This document shows, in pieces, positions 40,352 through 58,416 of a stretch of DNA of 64,000 bases; position 1 is the stretch's first letter, and each line of letters begins with the position of its first letter. Origin of the DNA: Zhihengliuella sp. ISTPL4. GTDB taxonomy: Bacteria > Actinomycetota > Actinomycetes > Actinomycetales > Microbacteriaceae. The notes under the pieces were generated by a model. That model had not been told where the DNA came from. It did no database searches and was given only the letters and a program-made list of their open reading frames with translations. The translations under genes and the position numbers were made by a program. Where the stretch lies: assembly GCF_002848265.1 (NCBI RefSeq), contig NZ_CP025422.1, forward strand, positions 2,758,727 to 2,822,726, read 5' to 3'.

Positions 40352-41521
40352 TCATCTGGCGTCTGTTGTGAGCCCGGTGACGGCGACCACGACGTCCTCA
40401 ATGCGGCGAAGGGACGCGATTCCCGCCAGAGCGGTCGTGGAAAGGACGTCTTCTTCCTGTGCGGGGAGGACGGTGACGTTGCGGGAGACGAGGGGGAGCG
40501 CCGACGCGCGCAGAGCAGCCGCGGTGTCGTCGATGAACGTGGGTAGACATCTGACCAGCTCGCCGCTCATGACGATGACCTCCGGATCCACGAGGTGGCA
40601 CGTGTTGACGAGAACCCGCCCCAGGATCTCGGCTGCGCGCCGGGCAAGGGCGACGGCGGACTCGTCGCCCTGGGCGACGAGTCCGCAGTACTGCCTCCAC
40701 TCGACGGTCGAGCCCGTACGGGTCCGATAGTCGCGAAGGAGCGCAGGGACGGACACGTATTGCATGAGGCAGCCCGCGTTCCCGCACGTGCATAGCGGGC
40801 CGTTCCAGTCGTATACGGTGTGCCCGATTTCTCCGGAACCTCCGCGGGCGCCGGTGCGAATCAGTCCGTCGACCACGTGCCCGGAGGTGACGCCGAAGCT
40901 GACGTCCACATAGAGGACGTCCCGATGGTTCGCCCCCGCTCCCCACAGTGATTCCGCGAGACCTTCGAGGCGTGCAGTGTTCTGGAGATGCACGCTCACT
41001 CCGAACCGCGTCTCGAGGTGCACCTTCGGATTGACGCCATACCAACGGCTCGATGCACGCTGAGCGTAGACGAGACCCGTCTGCGTGTCGATCTGCGTGT
41101 CGACAGCGAGATGAATGGCCCGCAGAAGCGTTCGCGGGTGCCCGACTTCCTCGAACAGGCGGTCGATGAGGTCGGCCCCGGCGTGCAACCGCTGCTCGGG
41201 CGACGCAGACGCGCTCGTCTGGAGTGTATGGGAAATTACCACTCTTCCATCAGCCCGCGACAACGTTACCGTGCAGGAGTCGACGAGGAAGACGAGAGAG
41301 ACGAGGACGCCCAGCTGGACGGAGGTTCCGATATGCGTCTTGATAGCTCCCGGCTCATGAGCGGGTTCCTCGATCCAACCTTCTTCCAAGAGCGTGTTGG
41401 TCAGGTTGGAGACGGTGGCTCGCGAAACGTCCAGCACGCGAGCGAGGTCCGCCCGATAGGCGGGGCCGTCGATCATCAGAGATCGAAGCAGGCGCTGCGC
41501 GTTGGGTGTGACGCTCGTCAT
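40352..41521 (-). CDS. ROK-family transcriptional regulator of the sulfated-glycan locus
   Basis: A 389-residue regulator. Residues 8-65 are a winged helix (RADLARVLDVSRATVSNLTNTLLEEGWI). The ROK domain includes the zinc/sugar signature GHTVYDWNGPLCTCGNAGC, while the kinase Asp is replaced in LQNTARLEGLAE, so it is a sensor and not a kinase. ATG 41521 is divergent from the sugar importer. ROK regulators of this kind respond to N-acetylglucosamine-type sugars or their phosphates, which fits the GH20 gene downstream. Confidence 0.9.
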   Translation of the reverse strand: MTSVTPNAQRLLRSLMIDGPAYRADLARVLDVSRATVSNLTNTLLEEGWIEEPAHEPGAIKTHIGTSVQLGVLVSLVFLVDSCTVTLSRADGRVVISHTLQTSASASPEQRLHAGADLIDRLFEEVGHPRTLLRAIHLAVDTQIDTQTGLVYAQRASSRWYGVNPKVHLETRFGVSVHLQNTARLEGLAESLWGAGANHRDVLYVDVSFGVTSGHVVDGLIRTGARGGSGEIGHTVYDWNGPLCTCGNAGCLMQYVSVPALLRDYRTRTGSTVEWRQYCGLVAQGDESAVALARRAAEILGRVLVNTCHLVDPEVIVMSGELVRCLPTFIDDTAAALRASALPLVSRNVTVLPAQEEDVLSTTALAGIASLRRIEDVVVAVTGLTTDAR

Positions 41522-41573
41522 CGGGCTCCCTTCAGCCGACCTCCAGACTAGCGCGCCTGCAGACGTGTCGGCT

Positions 41574-41621
41574 CAGAATTCTGTTAATTTACTTGACACT
41601 ATTGCGTACAGCGGTCATTCT
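41574..41621 (+). promoter_or_regulatory. promoter and candidate ROK operator of the glycan importer operon
   Basis: TTGACA (41593-41598) with a 17-bp spacer to CATTCT (41616-41621) resembles a sigma-A promoter with a weak -10. Just upstream are a perfect palindrome CAGAATTCTG (41574-41583) and the near-palindrome GTTAATTTAC (41583-41592). ATTTACT recurs at 12628. A repressor here would overlap the -35. Confidence 0.55.
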
Positions 41622-41707
41622 GATTCGAGCTCACACACTCAACGCCGAGATCAACTATCGCCCGTCGCCGCCGTGAGCAGAGCGGGGCAGATTCCATCGG
41701 AGGGATC

Positions 41708-42985
41708 ATGAAGGCACGCAGCGTACTGGCTGGCATCGCCAGTGCATCTGTACTTCTCACGTTGGCCGCTTGCAGCACGGACACCGACACCGACGCAGGC
41801 GAAAGCGCGGACGAGCCCGGGACCGTGAGGCTCTGGGTGATGGAAGGCTCGCTCTCTGACGAGAGCCGACAGTACCTCGAGGAGCAGTTCGCCGAGGAGA
41901 ACCCGGGGAGCGAACTCAAGGTCGAGGTGCAGCAGTGGGACGGCATCGTCTCGAAGCTCCAGACGTCTCTCGCTTCGAAGAACGAGAGCCCCGATCTTGT
42001 TGAGATCGGAAACACTCAGACCGCGACGTTCACGTCGGTCGGAGCCTTCGCAGACGTCACCGACCTCAAGGACGAGCTCGGCGGCGACGACCTCATCCCG
42101 TCGTTCGTGGACGCGTCCACCATCGACGGCAAGATCTACGCATACCCCCTCTACGCCGGGGCGCGGGGTGTGTTCTATCGCACGGACCTGTTCGAGCGGG
42201 CCGGGATCAGCGTCCCGACGACCATCGAAGAGTTCGGCGACGCCGCCATTGCGCTGCAGGCGGCGAACCCTGAGGGCACCCCGAACTTCTCGGGCATGTA
42301 TCTCGCGGCCGTGGACCCGCACGGTGTCGAGTCGTACCTCTTCCCGCAGGGTTTCGAGTACGCCGAGCAGGACGGCGATGAGTGGGTCGGGGCGGCCTCC
42401 ACCGATGAGTCCCTTGAGGCACTCACGGCGCTGCAAGACCTTTTCCGGAACGGCACGACCTTCGCCCTGGACTCGCAGGCCGGGCAGAAGTCGTTCGAGC
42501 GGTACTTCAACGAGGGGTCCACGGGCATCCTCATCGGTACCGGAAACATCGGAACGAAGATCGATCCGGCGCTGTGGGATGCCGGCAAGGTCGGTGTCTT
42601 CGCGATCCCTTCTGACGAGCCGGGCGTCCCCGGTGCGACTTTCGCCGGAGGGTCGAACATCGCGGTGGCGACGAACTCTCCGCACCCGGAGCTGGCGACG
42701 AAAGCTCTCGAGCTGATCTTCAGTGAGGACTTCCAGACGCGGCTCGCTGAGGAGGGGTGGGTGCCCGGCAACACCGCGTACAGCGATGCGGTCGCCGGTC
42801 CGTTCGGCGAGATCGCGGGCGAGATCATCACGAACTCGAAGCTCACCCCGAACAGCCCGGAATGGGGCGTGGCCTTCGGGTCCACGCAGCTGAACGAGTT
42901 CTTCACCCGCATCGCGAAGGGTGAAGACGTCGCCGCTGTCGCCAAGTCCTTCGACGAGCAGGTCGACACCTCGCTGAACAAGTAA
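41708..42985 (+). CDS. glycan ABC transporter substrate-binding lipoprotein (CUT1)
   Basis: A 425-residue solute-binding protein with a signal peptide and lipobox LAACS (cysteine near residue 22). VRLWVMEGSLSDESRQYLEEQF, NTQTATFTSVGAFADVT and the YPLYAGARGVFYRTDLF block are typical of oligosaccharide binders. ATG 41708 has GGAGG 5 nt upstream. It is the first gene of a long operon running through GH20 and sulfatase genes, so the ligand is probably a sulfated or N-acetylated oligosaccharide. Confidence 0.92.
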   Translation: MKARSVLAGIASASVLLTLAACSTDTDTDAGESADEPGTVRLWVMEGSLSDESRQYLEEQFAEENPGSELKVEVQQWDGIVSKLQTSLASKNESPDLVEIGNTQTATFTSVGAFADVTDLKDELGGDDLIPSFVDASTIDGKIYAYPLYAGARGVFYRTDLFERAGISVPTTIEEFGDAAIALQAANPEGTPNFSGMYLAAVDPHGVESYLFPQGFEYAEQDGDEWVGAASTDESLEALTALQDLFRNGTTFALDSQAGQKSFERYFNEGSTGILIGTGNIGTKIDPALWDAGKVGVFAIPSDEPGVPGATFAGGSNIAVATNSPHPELATKALELIFSEDFQTRLAEEGWVPGNTAYSDAVAGPFGEIAGEIITNSKLTPNSPEWGVAFGSTQLNEFFTRIAKGEDVAAVAKSFDEQVDTSLNK

Positions 42986-43004
42986 GACGGATCCACATCT
43001 CCTC

Positions 43005-43985
43005 ATGACGCAGACGACACTCCGGCCCGCTCGTCGCACCGAGCGCACGGCGAAGACCGCACCCGCACCGATGAGCACACGGGTCCGTGGCGCTCGCGGA
43101 CGCCTGACGCCCTGGATGCTCCTGGCACCCGCGACCGTCATGGTCGCAGTCGCCCTGGGCTACCCACTGGTGCGGCAAGCGATCATGTCCTTCCAGCACT
43201 TCGGCTTGGCGCAGCAGTTCGGCCAGCCCGCCGAGTGGGCCGGAGTGTCGAACTACGCCACCATCCTCACCGACCCGTACTTCTGGAGCGTGTTCCTGAA
43301 GTCCCTGGCGTTCTGTGCCTGGACGGCGGGTGTGACGATGCTGCTCGGAGTGGGCGTCGCGGTGCTCATGCTGCGACTGAACAACGTCATCCGGTCGTTC
43401 CTGAACACCGCCCTCATCATCGTGTGGGCGATGCCGGCCCTGGCTGCTCTGACGATCTGGCAGTGGCTGGTGGACCCCCGCTCCGGTCTGCTGAACTACG
43501 CGCTCACGAGCATCGGACTCAGCGGCTTCGAGAACTTCAATTGGCTGGGCGAGAACTTTTGGACGTTCTACCTCATCGCATCGGCCGTCATCATCTGGGC
43601 ATCCCTGCCGCTGGTCTCCATCACGATATATGCGGCTCTTGCGCAGATGCCCACCGAGGTTCTCGAAGCATCCGAGATCGACGGTGCCACCGGGTTCCAG
43701 CAGATTCGACACATCATGCTTCCGATGGTGGCGCCCGTCATCTCCCTTATCGGAGTGCTCCAAGTGATCTGGGACCTTCGCGTGTTCACCCAGATCTACG
43801 TCCTCCAGCAATCCGGCGGTATCGCGAGCGAGACCAACCTGCTGGGCACATACATCTACCAGACCGGTATCGCTCAAGGCGACTACGGGGTGGCCTCCGC
43901 GCTCGCGATGGTCGTCCTCGCGCTCACCCTCGTGCTCACCGCCCGCTATCTACGAATGCTGTACCGCCAAGGAGGAATGTTCTGA
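43005..43985 (+). CDS. glycan ABC transporter permease 1
   Basis: A 326-residue membrane protein with six segments after a long basic N-terminal tail. EAA loop: EVLEASEIDGATGFQQIRHI. It starts 19 bp after the binding-protein stop and overlaps the second permease (TGATG). No ATPase gene is present in the locus. Confidence 0.92.
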   Translation: MTQTTLRPARRTERTAKTAPAPMSTRVRGARGRLTPWMLLAPATVMVAVALGYPLVRQAIMSFQHFGLAQQFGQPAEWAGVSNYATILTDPYFWSVFLKSLAFCAWTAGVTMLLGVGVAVLMLRLNNVIRSFLNTALIIVWAMPALAALTIWQWLVDPRSGLLNYALTSIGLSGFENFNWLGENFWTFYLIASAVIIWASLPLVSITIYAALAQMPTEVLEASEIDGATGFQQIRHIMLPMVAPVISLIGVLQVIWDLRVFTQIYVLQQSGGIASETNLLGTYIYQTGIAQGDYGVASALAMVVLALTLVLTARYLRMLYRQGGMF

Positions 43986-44893
43986 TGGCGCTTCACACCG
44001 CGGACGCATCGACGCGCGCCCTCACCACCTCCCCGAAGGCGAAGGCCACCGGCGCCGCCACTCGCTCGTGGCGACCGAAGAACCCGCTCGCGAACGTCAC
44101 CGGTCTTCTCGTCGCGCTGTTGTGGCTGGTGCCGGTGTACTGGATGGTCAATTCGGCATTCCAGTCCGAGTCCGAGCTCATGTCCTGGCCGCCGCATCTG
44201 CTGCCCCAGGAGTTCACGTGGGGCAACTTCGTCTCGGCATTGACCAATCCCCATTTCGCTCCCGCGCTGGGATCCTCGCTTCTTGCAGCGTCCCTGACCG
44301 TCGTGTTCTCCACCATCGGAGCGCTGACTGCTGCCTACGCTCTGTCGCGTTTCCGCTTCCGCGGCCGCACCATCATGATCATCGCGATCCTCGTGGTGCA
44401 GATGATCCCCGCCGAAGCGCTTTTCATCTCGCAGTATCGAATGCTGGACGGATGGGGACTGTTGAACTCCGTTCTCGGGCTCTCGATCCTCTACATCGGA
44501 ACCATCGTCCCCTTCGTCGCCTGGATGACGCGCGGTTTCGTCGACGGAGTTCCGATTGAGCTCGAGGAGGCCGCCATGGTCGACGGATGCTCTCGCTTCG
44601 GTGCGTTCCGGCGCGTGACCCTCCCTCTCCTCGCCCCCGGGTTGGTGTCCACGTCCGTCTTCAGTTTCCTCTTCGCGTGGAACGAGTACACCCTCGCGCT
44701 GATTGTCCTCTCCAAGGACTCGTCCGTGACCCTCCCGATCTGGATCCAGTCGTTCCAGCAGGGGCTCAAGGCGACCGACTGGGGCGGAGTGATGGCCGGC
44801 GCCACCCTCATCGCGGTCCCCGTCATCATCATCTTCATGGCCGTGCAGAACAAGATCTCCCAGGGGATGGTTGCGGGAGCGGTCAAGGGATGA
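43985..44893 (+). CDS. glycan ABC transporter permease 2
   Basis: A 302-residue MalG-like permease, about six helices, EAA loop ELEEAAMVDGCSRFGAFRRV, and the C-terminal SQGMVAGAVKG tail that contacts the ATPase. Its stop overlaps the GH20 start (ATGA), coupling uptake to hydrolysis. Confidence 0.93.
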   Translation: MALHTADASTRALTTSPKAKATGAATRSWRPKNPLANVTGLLVALLWLVPVYWMVNSAFQSESELMSWPPHLLPQEFTWGNFVSALTNPHFAPALGSSLLAASLTVVFSTIGALTAAYALSRFRFRGRTIMIIAILVVQMIPAEALFISQYRMLDGWGLLNSVLGLSILYIGTIVPFVAWMTRGFVDGVPIELEEAAMVDGCSRFGAFRRVTLPLLAPGLVSTSVFSFLFAWNEYTLALIVLSKDSSVTLPIWIQSFQQGLKATDWGGVMAGATLIAVPVIIIFMAVQNKISQGMVAGAVKG

Positions 44894-46119
44894 CTCTCGC
44901 TGATCTGCCCCCGGTCCTCGTCGGACCTGTCCGGGGGCGCGACTCGTCGTTCCCTTGGCGCGGGCTGATGATCGACTCTGCCCGCACTCGTTTCACCGTG
45001 CCGGTCATCCTGCGCGTCATCGAGCTCGCCGCGCGATACGGATTCAACCGACTCCACTGGCATCTGACGGACGACCAGGGCTGGCGCTTCGACGTTCCCG
45101 ACTATCCTCTGCTGGCGGCAATCGGCGCCGACCTGCCGAGAGGCGCCTTCGACGACTACAACGCGCTTGCGGGGGAGACCCTGGAGCGGGCGAAAGCGGC
45201 TGCCGTCACGAGGTGGAGCAACGGGTTCTACTCCGATGAGGAGATCGCCACGGTCGTCGACTACGCCACCGCGCACGGTATCGAGGTCGTTCCTGAGGTT
45301 GACCTTCCCGGGCACATGTCCGCGGCAATCGCCGCGTACCCAGAGCTCGGACGCCCCGCACACCTTCCCCTGCCCCGTGGTTCGATGCGCGACCACATGT
45401 GGTGGCCCGCCCGCAACGATCTGTTGTGGCCGACGGCCGACGCCGAACGATTCGTCCGAGCAGTGCTCCGCAGGGTGGCCCAACTGTTCCCGGGGAAGCT
45501 CGTCCACATCGGCGGCGATGAGTGCGCGTACCGACAGTGGTCGTCCGACCCGGGATTGCCGGCAGCCCTGGCAAGCCGCGGGTTGGCGCGCGTCGAGGAC
45601 CTGCAGGCATGGTTCATGGACGTCGCGTCCACGGAGCTGCGGCGCCACGGCAAGACCGTAGCTGTCTGGGACGAAGCCTGCGACATCTGGGACAAGGGGG
45701 ACGCCGTCGTCATCGCATGGGACGAAGCCCGCGGAATGGAACGTGTGGGCCGCTCGTCCCTTCCCTACGTCTTCGCCGACGCGCGCACCCTCTACCTGAA
45801 CCGGGTCGATCCGGAGGGCAGCGACCAGCAGAACGGGATGACGCCCGCCATCTCGGTCGACGACATCCTTCGTGCACCGTGGCCTGAGACAGCGGACCCG
45901 CGGTGCCTGGGAGTGCAGGCCTGCGTCTGGTCGGAGTTCGTGCTCGACGGGGCGGACCTGCTCGACATGTTCTTCCCCCGCCTGCTCGCGGTGTCCGAGC
46001 GGATCTGGAACCCCGACCTCGACGCCGACGATGCCGCCGCACGGGTGCGGCGCGAACACGACCTGCTATCAACCTCTGGTGCTCTCGATGCGCCCCAGCT
46101 GACCCCGACGATGTGGTGA
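44890..46119 (+). CDS. GH20 beta-N-acetylhexosaminidase, cytoplasmic
   Basis: A 409-residue enzyme removing terminal beta-linked GlcNAc or GalNAc. GLMIDSARTRFTVPVI begins the barrel directly, so the N-terminal GH20b domain of most secreted hexosaminidases is missing. FNRLHWHLTDDQGWRF is the conserved strand block, and the catalytic Asp-Glu pair is D210-E211 in HIGGDE. WDEACDIW and VWSEFV carry further subsite residues. No signal peptide is present: it should act on imported oligosaccharides. Confidence 0.93.
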   Translation: MTLADLPPVLVGPVRGRDSSFPWRGLMIDSARTRFTVPVILRVIELAARYGFNRLHWHLTDDQGWRFDVPDYPLLAAIGADLPRGAFDDYNALAGETLERAKAAAVTRWSNGFYSDEEIATVVDYATAHGIEVVPEVDLPGHMSAAIAAYPELGRPAHLPLPRGSMRDHMWWPARNDLLWPTADAERFVRAVLRRVAQLFPGKLVHIGGDECAYRQWSSDPGLPAALASRGLARVEDLQAWFMDVASTELRRHGKTVAVWDEACDIWDKGDAVVIAWDEARGMERVGRSSLPYVFADARTLYLNRVDPEGSDQQNGMTPAISVDDILRAPWPETADPRCLGVQACVWSEFVLDGADLLDMFFPRLLAVSERIWNPDLDADDAAARVRREHDLLSTSGALDAPQLTPTMW

Positions 46120-46126
46120 GGAAACG

Positions 46127-49100
46127 ATGAACAGAACGATCAGGGCGTCAATCGCGGTGTCCCTCGCAATCGCCTTCAGCGGGAGTGGTCTCACCGCTCC
46201 CGCGTCTGCTGCCGTGGCGGTCGCGGCCGAAAGTCAGGCCCCGGCCCGCACCGTCTTCAGCGACGACTTCGCCGCGGGCGACGGCGCCCACTGGAACGTG
46301 ACCACGGCGAATGCCGCTTCCCAGGTGACCTACACCGGCGGGATGGTGAACGTGAAAGGAAGCGGGCCCGAAAACCGCATTCTCACCAAAGACGTCATCG
46401 CCGCCCGAGACTTCACCCTCAGCCTCGACCTCTTCATCCACGCCGGCAACACGAACAGCGCCATCAAGTTCGGCTTCTTCGCCACGGAAGGCGCCGCGTC
46501 CCGCTATCAGGTGACCTACGACGCCCCGAAGAGTCGCCTCGCGTTCGAACGGGTCGTGCAGGGGGCCACGACGCTCCTCGATGCGCCGGCAGCGGTGAGC
46601 CTCCCTGTCAACACCGGCGGAAACGCCCACCGCGTGGAGATCAGTGTGGACGGCGACCGCGTGCGGGCAAGCGTCGGTGGCCAGGTGCTCCTGGACACCG
46701 TCGACGCCGACATGGCCGACGCTGCCGCGGGCCGCATCGTCGTGGCCAGCCAGTTCCCCAACCAGGACTACAGCATCGACAACATCGTCGTCACCACCGA
46801 CGAGACGGAAGCGGTGGGCGAATACACCGTGGATGTCGCAACCGAGACCAACGGTGTACGCGACTCCTCGACCGAGACAGCGGGCGGAACGCTCACGGCG
46901 AGCCGCTCATCAGGGAACGCCGGGGACGGTGTGACGCTGACGTTCGCCGCACGACCCGGGTACATCTTCGACGGCTACGTCTCCCTCCGTGCAGACACGA
47001 TGACCAGCACGGACGGGCTCCTGACCATCAGCGACAACCGGTTCACCCTCGACGACAAGACCGGCAGCGTCGTCATCATCGCCACGTTCGTGACCGAGCC
47101 CGCCGACCCCAACCTGCTGTTCCGTGATGACTTCACCGGGGCCCTGAACGCCAACAACGACTACGACATCCAGGGCGAGGCTGCGGTGCGTGTCGAGGAT
47201 GAGGCGTTGGTCCTCGCGCCCACCACCGGTACAGCGTCAGCCTTCGTGCATTCGAGCAGCTGGGCGAACCCGAAGGCCTACAGGATCGAGGCGGACATCC
47301 GAAAGGCCGACACCGTCGCCGGCACGGCCCAGATCGCGTTTCGCGGCGCCGGTATGGAGTCCCGCTACGTCTTGGCGCTCAACGGCTCGAAGGCGCTTCT
47401 GCGCCGGATCGATGCGGGTGCCAATGTGGAGCTCGCGAGCACAGGGTTCGTGTTCGACCAGACGACCCGGCGCGTGTCGATCGATGTGACCGACGACACC
47501 GTCTCGGTGACCGTGGACGGTTCCCCACTCCTGTCGTACGTGAACGTCGACAGTGCGAACGACACCGCCGAGTGGTCGGGACTCGGCGCGGGTGCGGGCG
47601 TCATCAACATGACGGCGGGCTCATCCATCGCCGTCGACAACCTGACGATTTTCCGGACTCCCGTGCAGGTCGAAGTGAGCGTGGAGATCTCGAAGGATGG
47701 GGTCGCAGACGCCGAGCGAACAGCCGGCGCGGTCGTCCTGTCCCGATACACCGCCTCTGCCGGAGACACGGTGACGTGGAACGCATATCCGAAGGGAGCG
47801 CATCTCCTCCAAGGCCTGTCCTGGCAGGGTGCCCCGGTCCCCGCGGAGGGCTTCACTATCCCGAAGGATGCGGCGGCGGACGTGGTCCTCACTGCGAACT
47901 TCACTTCAACAGCGCTCGCCCCGACGACGTATTACATCGACCCGGTGGGCGGAGCCGACAGCAACGCCGGAACCTCCGCTGACACCGCCTGGGCATCCTT
48001 CAGCGCCCTGAACAGAGCGTTCGGGCCCGGTGACCGCATCCTCCTCAAGCGAGGCAGCGTCTTCAGCGGAGACGACGCGGCACTCCGTTTCCAGGGCTCG
48101 GGTTCCGCGAACGCGCCCATCGAGGTCGGCGCGTACGGGGACGGCCCACGGCCGCGCCTCGACGGTGCCGGAGAGGTCGAGAACGTCATCTCCCTCTTCA
48201 ACCAGGAGCATGTGAGCATCAGCGGGCTCGAGATCACCAACCTGCATCCCGGCCACGACAGCCGCTTCGGCCTGAACACGAGCACGAACCAGGAGAAGAA
48301 CCTGCGCGCCGTGAACGTCTCCGCGCGTGACTTCGGTGTCGTCTCGGACATTTCCCTGACGGACCTGCACATCCACGACATCAACGGGAACCTGTCTTCC
48401 AAGTGGAACGGCGGCATCTTCTTCGACATCGGTGCAGCAATCGAAGGCGGGGAACTCCGCGGAGTGCCCACCAAGTTCGACGGGATCCTCATCGCCGACA
48501 ACGTCATCGAACGCGTCGACCGTTCCGGGATCAAACTCGTGAGCTCCAGCTGGGCGAACCAGTCCGCACAGAACTCCCCGAACGTCCCGCTGTTCTGGTA
48601 CCCGTCAACCGGTATCGTTCTCCGCGACAACCAGATCCGGTACACCGGTGGGGATGGCATCACCGTGCGCGATGCGGATGGTGCGCTCATCGAGTACAAC
48701 CTCGTGCAGCACGCCCGGTACCAGAACACCGGCTACAACGCAGGTATCTGGCCCTTCCAAGCCACGAACACGGTCATCCAGTACAACGTGTCCCACACTC
48801 ACGGTGTTCAGGATGGGCAGGGCCTGGACACCGACCACGTGTCGTCCTACTCGGTCATGCAGTACAACTACTCGCACGACAACGAGGGTGGGTTCATGCT
48901 GATCATGAACGGCTTCCCGCACACGGCACCGACGATCCGGTACAACATCAGCCAGAACGACGCGGACAAGACCTTCGAGTTCTCCCGCGGAACGGCCGCC
49001 GGGACGATGATCTACAACAACACCATCTTCTCGGACTCGCTCCTGCGCGGACCCCGTGGAGGCGTGCTGGATCTTGCCAACTCCGCAGCCGGAACCGGCA

Positions 49101-49852
49101 ACCGCGAGGTCTTCATCTTCAACAACGTCTTCCACTACCCGGAAGGGCAGCCGTTCTACGTTGGTGAGGCAGCCACGATGCGTTCCCAGGTGCGTCTTTA
49201 CAACAACGCGTATGCCGGTGGTATCACCGCACCCGCGGAGGAAGAACAGGCCGTGACAGGAGACCTCGGGCTCCCGGAGATCGGTGACGCACCCGCGAAC
49301 ATCGACATCTCCAGCCCGCGCACGGGCGCTAATGTGGGCACCAGCTTCGATGGGTACACACCGGCGGAGGACTCTGCCCTCCGGGGAGCCGGGGTCACCT
49401 TGGCCGAGCTGGTCGCCCACTACGACGGGACGGTGACCGATCGACGCGATCTCTCCCCGACGGAGATCCACGCGGTGGCGCGTCAAAACACCAGCATCGA
49501 CATGGTGGCCGCGTGGAACCTTCCGGAGATCGGCGGCGTCACCTACGACACCGATTTCCGCGGCGCCGCGCTTCCTTCCGACACGGCGCGGGTCCTCGAG
49601 CCTGAGGGGATCACGGTGGGAGCGGTGCAGTTCGCCCCCGCTGAGTCGACGGGCGGTGGCACCTCAGATGGCGTCTCCTCAGAGGCAGGAGGAGAGGTGG
49701 CTCCGACGGGCGCCGCCCTATCCGCCGATTCGGCTGCCGCCGTCGCGGCTCTCGCTCAGACGGGATCGAACGCTCCGCTGATCCTGCTTGTCGGTGCCGC
49801 CCTGACGATCATCGTCGGGTGGCGTCTCCACGCACGCCGCTCGAGAACATGA
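46127..49852 (+). CDS. large cell-wall-anchored parallel beta-helix protein (probable polysaccharide lyase/hydrolase)
   Basis: A 1241-residue surface protein. Signal peptide (residues 1-30) is followed by two copies of a [concanavalin-like domain + InlB/Big-like beta domain] module: VFSDDFAAGDGAHWNVT (near 40) and LLFRDDFTGALNANNDYDI (near 330). A right-handed beta-helix starts at YYIDPVGGADSNAGTSADT (near 600) and runs to about 1000, with turns such as GIVLRDNQIRYTGGDGITV. The C-terminus is LAQTG (residue 1209), a hydrophobic helix and a basic tail: a sortase E-type sorting signal. ATG 46127 has AGGAAA. It probably depolymerises the glycan at the cell surface; catalytic family undetermined. 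Confidence 0.85.
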   Translation: MNRTIRASIAVSLAIAFSGSGLTAPASAAVAVAAESQAPARTVFSDDFAAGDGAHWNVTTANAASQVTYTGGMVNVKGSGPENRILTKDVIAARDFTLSLDLFIHAGNTNSAIKFGFFATEGAASRYQVTYDAPKSRLAFERVVQGATTLLDAPAAVSLPVNTGGNAHRVEISVDGDRVRASVGGQVLLDTVDADMADAAAGRIVVASQFPNQDYSIDNIVVTTDETEAVGEYTVDVATETNGVRDSSTETAGGTLTASRSSGNAGDGVTLTFAARPGYIFDGYVSLRADTMTSTDGLLTISDNRFTLDDKTGSVVIIATFVTEPADPNLLFRDDFTGALNANNDYDIQGEAAVRVEDEALVLAPTTGTASAFVHSSSWANPKAYRIEADIRKADTVAGTAQIAFRGAGMESRYVLALNGSKALLRRIDAGANVELASTGFVFDQTTRRVSIDVTDDTVSVTVDGSPLLSYVNVDSANDTAEWSGLGAGAGVINMTAGSSIAVDNLTIFRTPVQVEVSVEISKDGVADAERTAGAVVLSRYTASAGDTVTWNAYPKGAHLLQGLSWQGAPVPAEGFTIPKDAAADVVLTANFTSTALAPTTYYIDPVGGADSNAGTSADTAWASFSALNRAFGPGDRILLKRGSVFSGDDAALRFQGSGSANAPIEVGAYGDGPRPRLDGAGEVENVISLFNQEHVSISGLEITNLHPGHDSRFGLNTSTNQEKNLRAVNVSARDFGVVSDISLTDLHIHDINGNLSSKWNGGIFFDIGAAIEGGELRGVPTKFDGILIADNVIERVDRSGIKLVSSSWANQSAQNSPNVPLFWYPSTGIVLRDNQIRYTGGDGITVRDADGALIEYNLVQHARYQNTGYNAGIWPFQATNTVIQYNVSHTHGVQDGQGLDTDHVSSYSVMQYNYSHDNEGGFMLIMNGFPHTAPTIRYNISQNDADKTFEFSRGTAAGTMIYNNTIFSDSLLRGPRGGVLDLANSAAGTGNREVFIFNNVFHYPEGQPFYVGEAATMRSQVRLYNNAYAGGITAPAEEEQAVTGDLGLPEIGDAPANIDISSPRTGANVGTSFDGYTPAEDSALRGAGVTLAELVAHYDGTVTDRRDLSPTEIHAVARQNTSIDMVAAWNLPEIGGVTYDTDFRGAALPSDTARVLEPEGITVGAVQFAPAESTGGGTSDGVSSEAGGEVAPTGAALSADSAAAVAALAQTGSNAPLILLVGAALTIIVGWRLHARRSRT

Positions 49853-50568
49853 AGGCACGGCAGGGCGTTATCGTCGCGCTCATCGGCGGAGCCCTGGTGT
49901 TCAGTGGTGGGTGCTCCGCGCAGCCGCCACTGAGCTCCTCGGGGTCCGCGGTGCACGCGATCTATGAGCGAGCCGGCGAGCCGGACGCCTCTCCGCAGCA
50001 GCAGCTCCACGACATCGTGGTCTTCGATTGGGCGGCGGAACTCGACCTGAGGGAGCCCGTCACCGTCGACGCTCTGCAGCAGCCGGAGTCGGGTCAGACC
50101 GGGCCGCGCGGACAATCCTCCTGGGAGGCGTACGAGCGCGAGGTGGACACCACCATCGAACTCGTCGTCTCGTCGATCCGTTCCGAGTTGGGTCACGACG
50201 ACGTCCGGGAGTTCTACGAGCAGAACCTCGAGTCTTTCGCGCGTCAGGACGTGCTCGTCGTGCAGGTGACGGAATGGGAGGGCGGCCGCGCCCGGGCATC
50301 AACGGAGCTCCACATCGACGAGACGACGGTCCGTACCCTGCAGGAGAGTGATGACACCGTCGTGTCCTCGGCCCTCCTGCTGGAGGCCGGGGAGCAGGTG
50401 ATGGTGACACGCCGCGACGGCACGACCGCGGAGATCCGATGTCTCTCGCGGACCGAGGCCGGTGTGGACCCCTTCGAGGATGTGACGCAGGCGGCCGCCG
50501 CGCAACTCGCTGACGAGTTGTTCCTCGCCGAGCTGACTCGCCGCATCGACGCGGCGCGCCCACGATGA
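49849..50568 (+). CDS. SurA/foldase-like lipoprotein
   Basis: A 239-residue lipoprotein with lipobox SGGCS. The remainder resembles the flanks of SurA/PrsA-type foldases: a helical part, then VREFYEQNLESFARQDVLVV, GEQVMVTRRDGTT and PFEDVTQAAAAQLADELFL, but the parvulin core is reduced or diverged, so prolyl isomerase activity is doubtful. ATG 49849 overlaps the beta-helix gene stop (ATGA), suggesting a dedicated chaperone for that exported protein. Function is inferred from this layout. Confidence 0.6.
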   Translation: MKARQGVIVALIGGALVFSGGCSAQPPLSSSGSAVHAIYERAGEPDASPQQQLHDIVVFDWAAELDLREPVTVDALQQPESGQTGPRGQSSWEAYEREVDTTIELVVSSIRSELGHDDVREFYEQNLESFARQDVLVVQVTEWEGGRARASTELHIDETTVRTLQESDDTVVSSALLLEAGEQVMVTRRDGTTAEIRCLSRTEAGVDPFEDVTQAAAAQLADELFLAELTRRIDAARPR

Positions 50569-50592
50569 CCCCAAGGAATGGAGAGGCCAGCA

Positions 50593-52026
50593 GTGACTGC
50601 CCAGCAACGCCCCAACATCGTCCTCATCCTCACGGATGACCACGCATCGCACGCCATCGGCGCATACGGCTCTGTCGTCAACGCGACCCCTCGTATCGAC
50701 GAGATCGCCGACAACGGGGTGCGGATCGATAACTGCTTCTGCACCAACGCGCTCTGCACCCCCAGCCGGGCGTCGATTCTCACGGGAACATACAGCCACA
50801 TCAACGGCGTCACCACCCTGGAGACGCCCATCGACGCCAGCCAGCCGACATTCATCACACAGCTGCATGAAGCGGGGTATCGCACAGCCCTCGTCGGGAA
50901 ATGGCACATGGGTGAGGGGCCCGGACATGACCCGGAGGGCTTCGACTACTGGGCGGTGCTCCGGGATCAGGGCGAGTACTTCAACCCGCAGATCCTGACC
51001 TCGGATGGAGTGGAGATCGTTGAGGGCTACGCCACCGACATCATCACGGATCTTTCCCTCCAATGGTTGGAGTCGTTGCCCGGTGACGAGCCGTGGTGCA
51101 TCCTCATCCATCACAAGGCCCCGCATCGCCCCTGGGAACCGGATGAAAAGCACAAGGGGATGTTCACGAACCCGATCCCCGTCCCGGACACGTTCGACGA
51201 CGACTACGCCACGCGCTCGTCGGCCGCCCACCGGGCCGCGATGCGCATCGCGGACCACCTGACCCTGACGGATCTCAAACAGAGCCCGCCGGAAGACCTC
51301 ACCTACGAGCAGGCCGCACTCTGGAAGTACCAGCGATACATGGAGGACTACCTCGCCTGCGTGGCGTCCGTCGACGACAACGTCGGGCGGGTCATCGACT
51401 GGTTGCGCGACAACAACGTCTTGGACGACACGCTCATGATGTACACGTCCGACCAGGGCTTCTTCCTCGGCGACCACGGATGGTTCGACAAACGCTTCAT
51501 GTACGACGAGTCGCTGCGTATGCCCCTGCTCGTCAGCTGCCCCTCTCGAATCAGCGACCACGGGCGCACCATCGAACAGATCGTCACGAATGTCGACTTC
51601 GCGCAGACCATTCTCGACGCTGCCGGCCTGGAGCCGCACCCGCGCATGCAGGGGGTGAGTTTCTGGCCGCAACTCACGGATACCCCGGACAAGCCCACCC
51701 GTGATGCGATGTACTACCGGTACTTCGAAAACGACGACGCGAACCACCATGCCCTCGCTCACTACGGCGTCCGCACGGAAACGCACAAATTGATCTACTT
51801 CTACAACGATGGGATGGGGTTGCCCGGTTCGTCGCCGTTCGTCTACCCGCCGGAGTGGGAGATGTACGACCTCGTGGAGGATCCGGAGGAGCTCCGCAAC
51901 GTCTACCACGAGCCTGCATATCGGGACCAGCGGGAAGAGTTGAAGGCAGTCCTCTGGTCGCTGCAGGCCGAGCTGGGGGACACCCCGCATCCATCGCAGC
52001 CGATCCCCGAGCGGGTCAGTCGGTGA
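50593..52026 (+). CDS. S1 sulfatase, probably GlcNAc-6-sulfatase-like, cytoplasmic
   Basis: A 477-residue arylsulfatase-type enzyme. RPNIVLILTDDHASHAIGAY supplies the Asp-Asp calcium ligands; FCTNALCTPSRASILTG holds the formylglycine cysteine C55 in C-x-P-S-R; YRTALVGKWHMG supplies Lys/His. MYTSDQGFFLGDHGW is the second metal site. GTG 50593 is preferred over ATG 50578 because GGAGAGG lies 6 nt before it, while the ATG has only an AAGGA with no spacing. No signal peptide: it should desulfate imported oligosaccharides. Overall pattern resembles GlcNAc-6-O-sulfatases, at modest certainty. It needs a formylglycine-generating enzyme encoded elsewhere. Confidence 0.88.
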   Translation: MTAQQRPNIVLILTDDHASHAIGAYGSVVNATPRIDEIADNGVRIDNCFCTNALCTPSRASILTGTYSHINGVTTLETPIDASQPTFITQLHEAGYRTALVGKWHMGEGPGHDPEGFDYWAVLRDQGEYFNPQILTSDGVEIVEGYATDIITDLSLQWLESLPGDEPWCILIHHKAPHRPWEPDEKHKGMFTNPIPVPDTFDDDYATRSSAAHRAAMRIADHLTLTDLKQSPPEDLTYEQAALWKYQRYMEDYLACVASVDDNVGRVIDWLRDNNVLDDTLMMYTSDQGFFLGDHGWFDKRFMYDESLRMPLLVSCPSRISDHGRTIEQIVTNVDFAQTILDAAGLEPHPRMQGVSFWPQLTDTPDKPTRDAMYYRYFENDDANHHALAHYGVRTETHKLIYFYNDGMGLPGSSPFVYPPEWEMYDLVEDPEELRNVYHEPAYRDQREELKAVLWSLQAELGDTPHPSQPIPERVSR

Positions 52027-52027
52027 C

Positions 52028-52981
52028 ATGACCACTGCCGCTTCGCCTGGGGCGGCAATGGGGCCTGACCCCGCTGAGAGCCCTGCCGCACCCCCTCCGT
52101 CGCCACGGCTGGCGACACGGCCGGTGCGGCGGGAGAGTCGTGGGCTCGTGTTGCGCGCGATGCTGCGCCACGCCCCCGCTAGTCGCGCCGACGTCGCGCG
52201 GCTGACGGGGCTATCCCGGCCGACCGTGTCGGAGGTGGTGCGCGACCTGCTCGAGGAACACGTCATCGTCGAGGCTGACGCATCGAAAGGCGTAGGTCCG
52301 GGCCGACCCGGCACGCATCTCGCCTTCCACCCGTCCGGCGCTCAGGTCATCATCGTCGACCTGAGCGATCCACGGCACCTGGACGCGGCACTCTCCACCC
52401 CCGGCGGCAACGTACTGCACCGGCACCGTCGAGCCTGGGGCCACGGCGGCAGTCGTCCAGCCGACGTCATAGAGATGATTGGAGAGGTCGAAGGCCAGGC
52501 GGGTGGGAACCTCGTCGCTATCGTCATCGCGGCCTCAAGCCACGCGGAGGTCGTCGAAGAAGTCCGACGGGCTGTGCGCGTCCCCGTCCATGTCTTCGAC
52601 CCCGCCGACCTCGCTGCCGACATCGAATACCTCCTCGGCGAGCGCGGCGGGGGAAGCCTGGTGCTCATACAAGCCGGCGCCGATGTCGCCGTCGCTGTGC
52701 GGGAGTGCGACGCTGCGGGCGTTCTCCTGGAACGGCCGGCAGGCGCGGGCCGGTTATCGTCCTCGACGTGGTCTTTGGAGGAGCTCGCCCCGTCGTTGGC
52801 AGTCCTCGCCACCGCTCTCGGGGTTCCGCAGGTCATCGTCAGCGGGGAGCATGCCCGGCGCCTGGCGGGCATGATGAGGAGTGCGGTGCGGAGCCCTCAC
52901 GTGCGCGTGTCCGTCAGCGACCTCGACGACTCGGTCGCCCGTGCCGCGGCGTTGGCCGTCGCACTCCGACCGGAGCAGTAG
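52028..52981 (+). CDS. degenerate ROK-like winged-helix regulator
   Basis: A 317-residue protein. Residues 35-95 form a strong winged helix (MLRHAPASRADVARLTGLSRPTVSEVVRDLLEE). The rest keeps a vague ROK-like alternation but lacks the phosphate loop DxGxT, the sugar EH/CxCG site and about 80 residues of usual length. It starts 1 nt after the sulfatase stop. It may act as a second, ligand-blind or differently tuned regulator of the locus. Confidence 0.75.
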   Translation: MTTAASPGAAMGPDPAESPAAPPPSPRLATRPVRRESRGLVLRAMLRHAPASRADVARLTGLSRPTVSEVVRDLLEEHVIVEADASKGVGPGRPGTHLAFHPSGAQVIIVDLSDPRHLDAALSTPGGNVLHRHRRAWGHGGSRPADVIEMIGEVEGQAGGNLVAIVIAASSHAEVVEEVRRAVRVPVHVFDPADLAADIEYLLGERGGGSLVLIQAGADVAVAVRECDAAGVLLERPAGAGRLSSSTWSLEELAPSLAVLATALGVPQVIVSGEHARRLAGMMRSAVRSPHVRVSVSDLDDSVARAAALAVALRPEQ

Positions 52982-53333: not shown

Positions 53334-54713
53334 CTACAGGCGAGTGACGACAGGCGGCACCCAGGAGTCCTCGGTGATGCCCGGCTCGCCTCCATAGGCG
53401 CGCAGATACAGCGAGAAAGTTGCATCCGGGGCAGGGAGCCAGTTGCTCTCCAGCTCCGCGCCCGGCGATGCGTGCCCGACGTAGAGCGTCAGCGAGCCGT
53501 CTTCGGCGTAGGTGAGCGTCTTGTTCTTCGTGCCGAGCGAGTACCGTCGCACGTCGTTCGGGTAGAAGAAGTGGTCGTCGTCGTACATCGTCAACGACCA
53601 GAAACCGTCGACCGGGGGAAGATCGCCGGCCGCGAACGTCACGGAGTAGCTGGCGGACCCTGTGAGCTGCTGACCCTCAGAGTCGGTATCGGTGTAGAAA
53701 TACTGGGTTTCGTTCGGCCGGTTCTCGAACATGTTCGACCGCGCTGTTGCGGCCCGGTTCAGGTAGTCCAATCCCCACTGGGAGTTGTGTACTGACCGGT
53801 TCCAGCCGTTGCCGGCATCCTTGCCGTTGTATCGCCATTTCATCGCGTTCGGCACGAAGGATTCGTCGGCGGCCTGGAACGCGGCGTCGATGCCGGCGCG
53901 GATTTCCGGGTCGCGGGCACCCGCCTCCAGCATCGCGGTGAACTGTGCGTACAGCGTTTCCTCGCCGGGCAGTGGGGTGGTCGTGCGGAGCACCTCGCCC
54001 AGCTGGTCGAAGAACGTCTCGGGGCGCACCCACTTCGTCTCGCCGCCACCGGCGCTAGGGCCCGCGTCGAACGACGGCACGTCGGCCCAATCTTTCGAGC
54101 GCATCTCACCGGTGAACTCGGTCAGCGGATAGACCATGACTTGGTTCACCACCGGTTGGATCGCGGCGCGATCCTCGTCGGTGTCGTCCATGAAAATGCG
54201 AGGGATCGCGTTGGCGAGCGCAGTGGGGCTGCGGAACACATCGGTGATGCCCCGAGGGACCTCGCCGGTCCACTCGGGACCAACCAGGAGGTAGTGACCT
54301 GGTGCGCTGTCATACAGCGAGCCCAGTTCGCCGAACTGGTCGGTGCGGGCGTCGTAGAACGCGTAGACGAAGAACCGGTCGCCGAAGTCGGGGACCTGCA
54401 CCACCACGGGCTGCTCGTCGAGTGAGAAGAACCCCAACCCGTACACGACATCCTGGTTCGGGCAGGCGATGAATCGCTCCGCGGGTTCGATGTAGTCGTT
54501 CAGCATCGCGATCTGTCCGACAGGCGATGCGGGTAGGACCCCGCCCAGGCGACCTGGTTCGGGCGCTGCCCCCAGTCGGAGGCGACGGTTCATCATGTTC
54601 ACCATCGGATAGCCCCACACGTAGGCGAACTGCGCGACGGTGGACAGGAAGGAGGGCTCGAATGCCGAAGTGCCGGTCGGCAGTGCCAGATTCTCTCGCT
54701 CCAGTTTGCCCAC
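53334..54713 (-). CDS. DUF1254/DUF1214 domain protein
   Basis: A 459-residue protein. The N-terminal DUF1254 part includes FAYVWGYPMVNMMNRR and FIACPNQDVVYGLGFFSLD, and the C-terminal DUF1214 part includes VDGFWSLTMYDDDHFFYPND and RYSLGTKNKTLTY, then GHASPGAELESNWLPAP and FSLYLRAYGGEP, all family hallmarks. No signal peptide is evident from GTG 54713; an ATG at 54787 would only add a polar tail. Family function is unknown; the fold has been likened to beta-sandwich enzymes. It is divergent from the adhesin gene. Confidence 0.88.
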   Translation of the reverse strand: MGKLERENLALPTGTSAFEPSFLSTVAQFAYVWGYPMVNMMNRRLRLGAAPEPGRLGGVLPASPVGQIAMLNDYIEPAERFIACPNQDVVYGLGFFSLDEQPVVVQVPDFGDRFFVYAFYDARTDQFGELGSLYDSAPGHYLLVGPEWTGEVPRGITDVFRSPTALANAIPRIFMDDTDEDRAAIQPVVNQVMVYPLTEFTGEMRSKDWADVPSFDAGPSAGGGETKWVRPETFFDQLGEVLRTTTPLPGEETLYAQFTAMLEAGARDPEIRAGIDAAFQAADESFVPNAMKWRYNGKDAGNGWNRSVHNSQWGLDYLNRAATARSNMFENRPNETQYFYTDTDSEGQQLTGSASYSVTFAAGDLPPVDGFWSLTMYDDDHFFYPNDVRRYSLGTKNKTLTYAEDGSLTLYVGHASPGAELESNWLPAPDATFSLYLRAYGGEPGITEDSWVPPVVTRL

Positions 54714-55035
54714 GGCCGTTCCTGCTTTCGGTTGCGGTCGGAATGCTCTCCCCGCGCGCGGAGAGGCACCGGTCTTGCCATTGACCATAGGTGTCCGTGG
54801 AGAGCACCGCGCGGGAGCGAGAGGAGATTCACCCGGGTGACTCCCCTCCGCCTCGGCAGCCGTAGAACGCGCGGGGGACGCGGTTTCTCGCCTTTTGCGA
54901 CCGCCCGACCTGCTCGGCCGGCGCGGGTGGTCGTTTCGGCCCGCGAGGGACGAGGGTGTCTTTCCGTGACGCGACCTGGTGTACTGAGGTTCACTGGCCC
55001 GATGCAGGGGGTGTCGGGCGGGGAGAGGGGCACTC
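54714..55035. other. divergent intergenic region, no gene seen
   Basis: 322 bp between the DUF1254 gene and the adhesin gene. It must hold both promoters, but no clear -10/-35 pair, repeat or hairpin stands out. A GGGAGAGGGG ribosome-binding tract (55021-55030) precedes the adhesin start. Confidence 0.6.
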
Positions 55036-58000
55036 GTGGCCGACCGCGCGCATCCGATTCTCCGACGCTTTGCTGCGTTCGTCACTGCCGGGGCTTTGGC
55101 GGTGGCGGGTGCGGTGGTCATGGCGGTGGCTGTGCCAGCGCCGGCGGCGGCCGACTATCCGGAGACGGTGAACCCGTTCGCTATCGGGGGCGGGTTCACC
55201 GTGTATGCGCGGGAGGACGCGCTGATACGGAACCAGGAGACGGAGGGCAGTATCGCCGTCGGCGGGACGGCGACCGTCGCGCCGGCCAGCGCGAGCCAGT
55301 ACACCATCGTGCATGTCGCTGCGGGGACAGGTGACTACGACCTGCCGGTGGTCGACGGCGACCCGACACGGTTCCTCGTCGGCCGTTACAGCCCCGAGAG
55401 CACCGGCATCCTGGCGATCACCAGCGCGGGCACCACGGAGCCGAGCCTGCTGGGCGACCTGAAGATGGTGCAACGGGACGGGCCCTGGCAGGCCTTCGCT
55501 CGCGCGAACTGGCTGCGGCTGAACCAGAATCCGGCGAACGCCGACCAGACACCGCTGATCGACGCGACCCATCAGCGGTATCCCGCGAACGCCGCACCGC
55601 CGACGGGCGCCGCGGGAGGCGGGAGCATCTACACCGTCAACACCTCCGCCACCGCTGTCGCCGACTACGTCGAAGCGAACCGGGATGCGTCCTGGCAGCA
55701 GGCGCAGACGTGCCTTGCCGACATCGCCGACCCGACCACCGGGATCGGGTACCCCGTCACCGTGGCCGAGGATGTCGGCAGCCGTGTGGTGCTGGCGCCG
55801 TTGAGTGCCGACCAGCCCAACATCGTCGACTACGCCGACATCGCCGGAACCGCTCTCATCCAGTTCTCTCCTGGGCCGACGCCGGGCGTCTCCAACCCGT
55901 TGGTCATCCGTGTGCCTGCGGGGACCACGGAGGTGATCGGCGCACGCGCGGACCCGCAGGGCGCGTACTCCCCGTACATCATGTGGGACCTGTCGCAGCT
56001 CACCGGCGACGTCACCGTGCGTGCGGCGGAAGCACGCATCGACGGCTCCATCTACGCTCCCGAGGCCTCCGTGACGGTCGATGCCGCGCCCCTCGACGGC
56101 CAGGTCATCGGCAGGAACGTGACGCTTCTGGGCGGCGAGACGCACTCCTTCCTCTTCGCCAGCGAGATCACCTGCGCCGCCGACCGGGGCACGTTCGCGA
56201 TCCGCAAGGAGCTGTCCGGCATCGCCCCGGAAGACCTCCCGGAGGGGGCGACGTTTACGCTCAACTATGTCGCCACGGACCCGGACGGGCAGACCTCGGT
56301 GGGAACGCTCGAGGTCCCCGCCGACGGGAGCCCCGTGCTCGCCGAGGAGCAGTTCCCGCTGGGTACCACGGTCGAGTTCGTTGAGATCGAACCGGAGAGC
56401 GTCCCCGGCTGGGAGTGGGGCGAGCCGGTCATCGATCCGAACCCGCTGACCATCGGCGCGGGGACCGCGAAGGTCGTCATCACCAACACGGCCACCGCGC
56501 AGCTGGGCACGTTCAGCATCAGAAAGTCCATCGACGACGTCTCCGGTGGGAGCCCGGGAGCGCCCTCCCAGGCGACCGTTCCGGTCACGTGGACGGCGAC
56601 ATTCCGCGGGGAACAGATCGGCAGCGGGACTCTGGATGTGCCGTTCGATTCGACCGTCATCGACGTGGGCGTGTCCTTCCCCGTCGGAACGGTCATCACC
56701 CTTTCCGAAGACCTGACGGGCATCGACCCGCCAGACGGCTACGAATGGGCTGGCGCGTCCTGGTCGCCACGACGCATCTTCATCATTCGAACCACCAGCA
56801 CCGTTGCCGTCGAACTCGTGAACGCCATCACACCGGCCACCGCTGAGCGGTCCATCACCATCGTCAAATCCGTCGAGGGTGGGGCGTCCGACACCGGCTA
56901 CGAGTACGCCGTGTCCTACAACACCGACCCGCCGGGAACGCGCACGCAGCTCACGCTCCCTGTCGGAGACCCTGCAGCTCTCGACGATGTCGAATCCGGT
57001 GCCGACACGCTGCAACTCGCCGAGCTCCTGCCCACGTATCAGGGGGACCCGGTCGATGCCGCCGGCTGGTTGCCGCCCGTCATCACTGTGACCATCGACG
57101 GCGAGACGACGCAGTACCGGCCTGAGAACTTCGAGGGCGCAGGGCCGCTGGAATCGGCAATCGTCGACATCCCGCTGCCGGCCAGCGGTGACATCCTGAT
57201 CGACATCACCAACGAAGAGCGGGCGGGAACGTTCGAGCTGGCGAAGGCTTTCGCCGGCATCCCCGCCGGGAGTATCCCGAGCGGGCTGGAGTTCACCGTC
57301 CGATGGACCGCGGTGCTTCCCACCGGGGAGACCCAGACCGGCACCGTGCGCGTCCCCGGTGACGGCACACCGCGCAGCCCCCTCGACGACACCGGCCAGC
57401 CGATCCTGTTCCCCTTCGGGACCACGGTCACCTTCGACGAGCTCGCAGCACCCACCCGGTCGCGGCTGCGATGGGAGGGAAGGGTCTTCGACCCGACGCA
57501 GCTCGTGATCGGTCAAGGCGGGGAAACGGTCGTCGGCGCGACGTTGACGAACAGCGGAACGCTACTGACGGGGACCTTCTCCGTCAGCAAAAGCCTCTTC
57601 GGCATCGACCCAGACCAGGTCCGTGCGGACTCGTTCACCATCGAGTACACCGCACACCTCCCGGGGCAGAGCGAGCCAGTTACCGGCACCATCGCGGTGC
57701 CCACGGACGGAACACCGGCGAGCCCTCTCGACGCGTCCGGCGAGCCGGTGACCTTCCCGCTGGGAACGACGATCCAACTCGCCGAACCAGACCCCGAAGA
57801 TACGGCGCTCCCCGAGAACTTCGAATGGGCGGGGGCAACCTGGTCGCCCCAAAGCAGCCTCATCATCGGACTGCGTGATGCGCCGCAGCTCGAAGTCACC
57901 AACACCGCCGTCGAACTGACACGGTGGGCGCTCACCAAGCGAGTGGAGGGAACCGACTCCCTCCCGCCTGGCACCACGTTCGCCTTCGACTGGTGGGCCG

Positions 58001-58416
58001 ACGACGTCCCCCAGTCGCGTGTCGAAATCGAACCAGGAGAGACCATCTACTCGCCCTACTTCTCAGTCGGAACCGTCCTCGAAGTCCGAGAAGCGACACC
58101 TCCCGCCGTGCCAGGAATCACCTGGTCGACACCGCAGTGGAGCGTCGAGGGGGAGATCCTCACTCCCGATGAGGACGGTCGGGTCGCGCTCCCCACCACT
58201 GTCTCCCGCGACCTCGGCGTCGCAGAGCTCCTCCTCACCAACACCGCCAACAGCAGTGGCGGGGGCGACGACGGTGGCGGTGACGGCGATGACGGCTCGG
58301 ATGGGCAACTGCCCTCCACCGGTGGGGAGCCGTTCTCGCCACTGGTCATCCTCGGAGCCCTGGCCGCCGTACTACTCGGCACCTACCTCGCGATCCGCCG
58401 ACGAGGGCGGATCTGA
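55036..58416 (+). CDS. choice-of-anchor-A surface adhesin with six DUF5979-like repeats and LPSTG anchor
   Basis: A 1126-residue wall protein. A signal peptide (1-41, ending APAAA) precedes a choice-of-anchor-A domain (about 46-380; YPETVNPFAIGGGFTVYARED and EGSIAVGGTATV). Six repeats of about 115 residues begin near 385, 490, 605, 730, 845 and 960, each opening with [FWI]-x-[IVL]-x-K (GTFAIRKELSG, GTFSIRKSIDD, GTFELAKAFAG, GTFSVSKSLFG) and ending in VxxTN, like DUF5979 prealbumin-type stalks. A Gly/Asp spacer leads to LPSTGG at 1092, a membrane helix and RRRGRI. Probably a fibrillar adhesin. Confidence 0.92.
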   Translation: MADRAHPILRRFAAFVTAGALAVAGAVVMAVAVPAPAAADYPETVNPFAIGGGFTVYAREDALIRNQETEGSIAVGGTATVAPASASQYTIVHVAAGTGDYDLPVVDGDPTRFLVGRYSPESTGILAITSAGTTEPSLLGDLKMVQRDGPWQAFARANWLRLNQNPANADQTPLIDATHQRYPANAAPPTGAAGGGSIYTVNTSATAVADYVEANRDASWQQAQTCLADIADPTTGIGYPVTVAEDVGSRVVLAPLSADQPNIVDYADIAGTALIQFSPGPTPGVSNPLVIRVPAGTTEVIGARADPQGAYSPYIMWDLSQLTGDVTVRAAEARIDGSIYAPEASVTVDAAPLDGQVIGRNVTLLGGETHSFLFASEITCAADRGTFAIRKELSGIAPEDLPEGATFTLNYVATDPDGQTSVGTLEVPADGSPVLAEEQFPLGTTVEFVEIEPESVPGWEWGEPVIDPNPLTIGAGTAKVVITNTATAQLGTFSIRKSIDDVSGGSPGAPSQATVPVTWTATFRGEQIGSGTLDVPFDSTVIDVGVSFPVGTVITLSEDLTGIDPPDGYEWAGASWSPRRIFIIRTTSTVAVELVNAITPATAERSITIVKSVEGGASDTGYEYAVSYNTDPPGTRTQLTLPVGDPAALDDVESGADTLQLAELLPTYQGDPVDAAGWLPPVITVTIDGETTQYRPENFEGAGPLESAIVDIPLPASGDILIDITNEERAGTFELAKAFAGIPAGSIPSGLEFTVRWTAVLPTGETQTGTVRVPGDGTPRSPLDDTGQPILFPFGTTVTFDELAAPTRSRLRWEGRVFDPTQLVIGQGGETVVGATLTNSGTLLTGTFSVSKSLFGIDPDQVRADSFTIEYTAHLPGQSEPVTGTIAVPTDGTPASPLDASGEPVTFPLGTTIQLAEPDPEDTALPENFEWAGATWSPQSSLIIGLRDAPQLEVTNTAVELTRWALTKRVEGTDSLPPGTTFAFDWWADDVPQSRVEIEPGETIYSPYFSVGTVLEVREATPPAVPGITWSTPQWSVEGEILTPDEDGRVALPTTVSRDLGVAELLLTNTANSSGGGDDGGGDGDDGSDGQLPSTGGEPFSPLVILGALAAVLLGTYLAIRRRGRI

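Follow-up and report, generated by a model that had tools for sequence, protein, structure and literature searches.

Glycoside hydrolase family 136 (GH136) enzymes such as LnbX/LnbY of Bifidobacterium longum and ErLnb136/RhLnb136 join a beta-helix catalytic domain, in which two aspartates stand seven residues apart, to a partner, either a subunit or a domain, that is required or lies adjacent. As described in PMC8106489, LnbX has a pocket, whereas endo-acting beta-helix enzymes have a long cleft. GH136 specificity can change, according to the account in PMC7335108 of the Roseburia inulinivorans Lewis a/b locus, which holds GH136, ATP-binding cassette (ABC) import, regulators, fucosidases and GH112. 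Sulfatases of subfamily S1_11 that act on mucin attack N-acetylglucosamine 6-sulfate (GlcNAc-6S) from the non-reducing end, and the same triad reads L-galactose (PMC10154612); the Bifidobacterium breve GlcNAc-6-S cluster belongs to a strain described as depending on cross-feeding (Egan 2016, as cited in PMC7326374). Here, we describe an eight-gene operon with a divergent ROK regulator gene in Zhihengliuella sp. ISTPL4, within a window of 64,000 nt (the whole stretch of DNA analyzed; NZ_CP025422.1, positions 2,758,727 to 2,822,726). On balance, we read it as a glycan-uptake operon centered on a two-component, GH136-related surface glycosidase, with sulfated mucin-type or keratan-like chains as likely sources.

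The locus shares with these GH136 systems the beta-helix catalytic domain, the aspartate spacing, and an adjacent partner gene and, with the Roseburia locus, ABC import and regulators; it has a sulfatase and GH20 where that locus has fucosidases and GH112. Like the B. breve cluster, it belongs to an actinobacterium and has a predicted intracellular GlcNAc-6S sulfatase, but here a surface glycosidase and GH20 lie within the operon.

Nine open reading frames (ORFs) were verified (Table 1). The eight plus-strand genes are separated by 19, −1, −4, 7, −4, 9, and 1 nt, far from chance spacing, and 186 nt separate the ROK gene from the binding-protein gene. Starts were revised for permease 2 (43985), GH20 (44890), and the lipoprotein (49849). 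Families were assigned by a Pfam scan of the nine proteins, and N-terminal signals were judged by eye with a simple hydropathy scan; by this measure the binding protein, lipoprotein, and beta-helix protein carry one, and none was seen in the sulfatase or GH20. An earlier sequence-only reading had named the same nine genes and families, and positions, Pfam matches, and the LAQTG and CTPSR motifs bear it out, with one partial exception: the last gene, which it called ROK-like, has a helix-turn-helix (HTH) with a ROK-type N terminus, and Pfam found no ROK domain in it.

The beta-helix enzyme has sequence and fold homology to LnbX-type GH136, and its acid/base and nucleophile pair, D896 and D903 (ErLnb136 D568 and D575), is kept in 28 of 28 aligned sequences. 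LAQTG, at residue 1209 in a protein of 1241 residues, precedes a hydrophobic stretch and a basic tail and is presumably a sortase signal; 7 of the 19 clade proteins viewed end in LAxTG or LPxTG motifs. The sequence-only reading had this protein cut a polymer, and cleavage of a glycosaminoglycan polymer, with chondroitin and heparin as examples, would suit the pairing of sulfatase with GH20 and the shared fold of chondroitinase B (E, 3e-5). We consider this very improbable: a chondroitinase B-like or other PL6-type lyase was rejected because three GH136 structures are far closer, and LnbX is described as having a pocket, not a long cleft (PMC8106489). A distant second beta-helix relative (35%) lies in the same genome (G000:C1:2345458-2346525; L117).

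A search of an 84,980-species collection with the enzyme confirmed 126 places, and the 80 best were retained. In a 136-sequence tree, the enzyme of the window and 19 others form one clade (support, 1.0), apart from the characterized lacto-N-biosidases; the four PDB GH136 enzymes form their own (support, 1.0), and deeper nodes are weak. Clade members come from Arthrobacter, Propionibacteriaceae, Gleimia, Dermabacter, Bifidobacteriaceae, and a genome of the same family as ISTPL4 (G129), and also from Streptococcus gallolyticus, S. azizii, Lactobacillus colini, Hungatella, Faecalimonas, Clostridium porci, Pseudoflavonifractor, Butyricicoccus, Blautia, two Lachnospiraceae, Oscillibacter, and Oscillospiraceae (L036 and L042 look nearly identical and are not independent). 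It is firm that this is an operon encoding a GH136-like enzyme with an intact catalytic pair, that a partner gene is adjacent, and that the enzyme belongs to a distinct branch. Among the titles and abstract openings listed in searches of open-license literature, none dealt with the branch or with an actinomycetotal GH136 gene next to one for a sulfatase. In Limousia, GH136 genes, whichever branch they belong to, are reported to be induced on mucin without sulfatase induction (PMC12997984).

The branch also differs from LnbX-type enzymes at the −2 subsite, where the galactose-stacking Trp (ErLnb136 W548) is Phe877 here and Phe in 18 of 18 aligned clade members; the window enzyme also has Arg848 for Met and Asp849 for Tyr. 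This bears on an alternative in which the operon simply encodes a lacto-N-biosidase acting on type-1 chains (milk sugars or mucin), which would release Gal-beta-1,3-GlcNAc and carry the sulfatase as a passenger for sulfur scavenging. GH136 homology and the catalytic pair speak for it, as do sulfatase relatives in loci with NMT1-type transporters, a GH2 beta-galactosidase in the Arthrobacter locus (which also has a sulfatase), and lac phosphotransferase system (PTS), lacA, lacB, lacD, and 6-phospho-beta-galactosidase genes in that of S. azizii. The absence of the Trp argues against it, and the core has GH20 and no galactosidase. In a survey that did not extend to GH35 or further galactosidase families, GH2 and GH42 had no match in the genome, although positive controls were detected, and GH112 was not found, though its control was also silent. 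We regard this alternative as unlikely. The S. azizii GH136-like gene (L041:4363-7415) is split over two reading frames and may be inactive or reflect a sequencing error.

The lipoprotein gene adjoins the enzyme gene here and is present in 18 of 20 clade loci; we propose its product as partner or chaperone of the GH136-like enzyme. It was modeled as SurA/FKBP-like, in which the system differs from LnbX/LnbY and ErLnb136/RhLnb136, as it does in a core GH20 rather than GH112/GH42. Two profile searches of PDB sequences returned nothing in one case and SurA-like Cj1289 (E, 8e-4) in the other, and profile searches found no sequence link to GH136_I or LnbY. Domain I of ErLnb136 weakly resembles 5EZ1, and 5ez1 is also among the matches listed for the lipoprotein; 6kqs is not among them.

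The sulfatase has CxPSR at Cys60 and the triad Asp and Arg of S1_11 (D304 and R306), aligned with D361 and R363 of 5g2v, which we take to be recognition residues. Its closest solved relative is this GlcNAc-6-sulfatase (402 bits; E, 4e-119), followed by the mucin-desulfating sulfatase 7p24 (371 bits; E, 1e-109); the two are presumably BT4656 and BT3177. Exo-L-galactose-6-sulfatase 7lha is the sixth PDB match (329 bits; E, 5e-97). The cysteine motif and aligned residues are as in BT4656, BT3177, and BT1628 of Bacteroides thetaiotaomicron (PMC10154612), but the operon enzyme, with no signal seen, is probably cytoplasmic, and import is by an ABC system, with no SusCD. Judged from sequence, it would act on GlcNAc-6S, and the triad also fits L-galactose-6-sulfate. 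An environmental sulfated glycan, such as one containing L-galactose-6-sulfate, could thus be the target in place of a host glycan: the triad is common to L-galactose enzymes (PMC10154612), 7lha is among the PDB matches, and neither Arthrobacter nor the same-family relatives must live on a host. Against this stand the better matches to 5g2v and 7p24 and the GH20 gene close to the sulfatase gene. Many clade taxa are, moreover, what we take to be gut or animal bacteria, and we hold an environmental target to be rather improbable.

No sulfatase-maturing enzyme was found by Pfam among the nine cluster proteins; an FGE gene elsewhere in the genome (1199301-1200185) could mature the operon sulfatase. 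That gene lies near two large sulfatase genes (G000:C1:1199301-1214611). Nor did Pfam find an ABC ATPase among the nine, so a self-contained locus, as had been supposed, is not supported. The importer parts present are those of a CUT1 system, presumably powered by a shared MsiK-type ATPase. GH20 consists of the catalytic domain only, with the Asp-Glu pair D210/E211 and a PDB hexosaminidase match (E, 1.5e-51). At 1661686, next to a second GH20 gene, is a nagA-like gene that scores 221 bits against a cut-off of 226.

For neighbors in clade loci, chosen genes only were scanned. Core genes follow one another in G129 and Gleimia as they do here (ROK, binding protein, two permeases, GH20, enzyme, lipoprotein), and Dermabacter has the same core genes in another order. 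Identities to G129 and Gleimia are 63% and 47% for the ROK repressor and 78% and 70% for the binding protein. In G129, the core is followed by one unscanned ORF, PspA, and patatin; additional genes are another S1 sulfatase and a radical-SAM/SPASM gene in Gleimia, an FGE gene in Dermabacter, and two sulfatases in a Propionibacteriaceae metagenome-assembled genome. An N-acetylhexosamine (HexNAc) glycan, as the sequence-only reading had it, is supported by GH20 here and by the GH20 or DUF4838 genes that 10 of the 20 clade loci contain. DUF4838, labeled GH163 in PMC9870897, occurs in six Bacillota clade loci; L040 also has a nagA gene above the curated cut-off and a nagB-like gene below it.

Within the DNA retrieved for each locus, a profile made from the five sulfatases placed sulfatase genes in 4 of 20 clade loci versus 1 of the 62 genome_contigs loci outside the clade (Fisher P = 0.012), and in 4 of 6 actinobacterial clade loci with L030 dropped for its cut contig (P = 9e-5; grouping post hoc). 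None was found in 13 Bacillota clade loci, yet 18 of 19 clade genomes searched have one somewhere. Of 298 other same-family genomes, 29 hold relatives of the operon sulfatase (E, <1e-90; 53 to 80% identity); G129 is one of them, its copy lying at a distance from the core. Among 14 such loci (the L146/L147 source loci included), none had enzyme, partner, GH20, or binding protein above 60 bits; 7 had a second sulfatase (78 to 100% identity), 9 an FGE match, 10 an NMT1-type binding protein, and 12 a ROK match. The earlier view of the sulfatase as a core member is not supported, its relatives lying in another kind of locus, and it was rejected as an invariant one: it is scattered in relatives, and the core in G129 and Gleimia is not. 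The Gleimia sulfatase is 52% identical to the second sulfatase of these loci. Since the two sulfatases are neighbors elsewhere and each has a relative behind the lipoprotein gene, in two species, both appear tied to the operon's glycan.

Seven same-family loci (L146-L151 and L158) share a conserved arrangement of two S1 sulfatases, NMT1/Ssu-type ABC components, and ROK, with an FGE match in six, and are possibly a sulfate-ester scavenging system. NMT1-type transporters also occur in the clade loci L039, L040, and L043 (Pfam for L040; blastp for the others); their ATPase is 54 to 61% identical to the sulfatase-locus ATPase, versus 30 to 39% for other listed ABC ATPases, and their binding proteins are 26 to 27% identical to those of the sulfatase loci. 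Clostridial TauE/SafE exporter genes lie near partner and GH136-like genes (L036:1388-2164, L039:5504-6307, and L040:6072-6875), with those of L039 and L040 immediately preceding the partner gene; this hints that a sulfur oxyanion is among the products.

A close enzyme member (72%) is present in 1 of 298 other same-family genomes (G129) and in none of the 17 same-genus genomes listed, one of which has a 36% match; any match at E 1e-10 was found in 21 of 299 same-family genomes. This sparse occurrence and the lower G+C content of the cluster (65.3%, versus 68.4% for the window) suggest horizontal gain.

In the proposed mechanism, the sortase-anchored enzyme, folded or completed by the lipoprotein, would release a terminal HexNAc-containing disaccharide, probably with GlcNAc O6-sulfated, through retaining catalysis by two Asp residues, with D896 as acid/base and D903 as nucleophile. 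The binding protein and permeases would import it with an ATPase encoded elsewhere, the sulfatase would desulfate O6 where GlcNAc-6S forms the non-reducing end, and cytosolic GH20 would split HexNAc-beta-X. The ROK protein would repress until product binds, with the ROK-SBP intergenic region as a possible operator; a search there for a conserved ROK operator showed only a promoter-like stretch shared with G129 (TTGACACTAT, with ATCGCATTTGCGAT in the G129 spacer; chosen by eye, with chance not assessed). The sequence-only reading foresaw cleavage at the surface with subsequent ABC import, and also a link to sulfate, and both points are supported; its remark that such uptake is known mainly from Bacteroidota is too narrow, as GH136 with ABC import is described in Roseburia (PMC7335108) and extracellular GH136 in Bifidobacterium (PMC8106489).

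TABLE 1 Features of the locus (window coordinates)
Feature	Position	Strand	Evidence
ROK-family repressor, divergent	40352..41521	-	PF00480 E 4.5e-40 plus HTH
ROK-SBP intergenic region	41522..41707	.	promoter-like TTGACA (41593-41598) N17 CATTCT (41616-41621)
CUT1-type sugar-binding lipoprotein (SBP)	41708..42985	+	SBP_bac_1, PF01547 E 2e-35
ABC permease 1	43005..43985	+	BPD_transp_1, PF00528
ABC permease 2	43985..44893	+	BPD_transp_1, PF00528
GH20 beta-N-acetylhexosaminidase	44890..46119	+	PF00728 E 5e-79; 409 aa
Surface-anchored GH136-like beta-helix glycosidase	46127..49852	+	Beta_helix E 4e-7; 1241 residues; D896, D903
SurA/PrsA-like lipoprotein	49849..50568	+	239 aa; Cys22 lipobox; no Pfam match
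S1 sulfatase, S1_11-like	50578..52026	+	sulfatase + SGSH_C; CTPSR (Cys60)
HTH regulator, ROK-type N terminus	52028..52981	+	HTH only

After the operon, the window encodes a DUF1254/DUF1214 protein of unknown function on the opposite strand (53337-55121) and an LPXTG surface protein that combines an ice-binding-like adhesive domain with DUF5979 repeats (55036-58413).

More tentatively, and at somewhat less than even confidence, the two-component branch may have a −2 subsite remodeled (Phe877, Arg848, and Asp849) for a sulfated HexNAc-bearing disaccharide instead of lacto-N-biose, and may have moved between Actinomycetota and Bacillota with its dedicated SurA-like chaperone and exchangeable partners (GH20 or GH163; CUT1, NMT1-type ABC, or PTS; S1 sulfatases or TauE exporter). 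To our knowledge, sulfate handling before or after import is little studied in Gram-positive bacteria relative to Bacteroidota. If correct, the reading would point to a new enzyme branch, together with its partner protein, that Gram-positive bacteria use on sulfated glycans; it would also provide a tool enzyme for work on sulfated O-glycans and a way to test cleanly how GH136 specificity changes.
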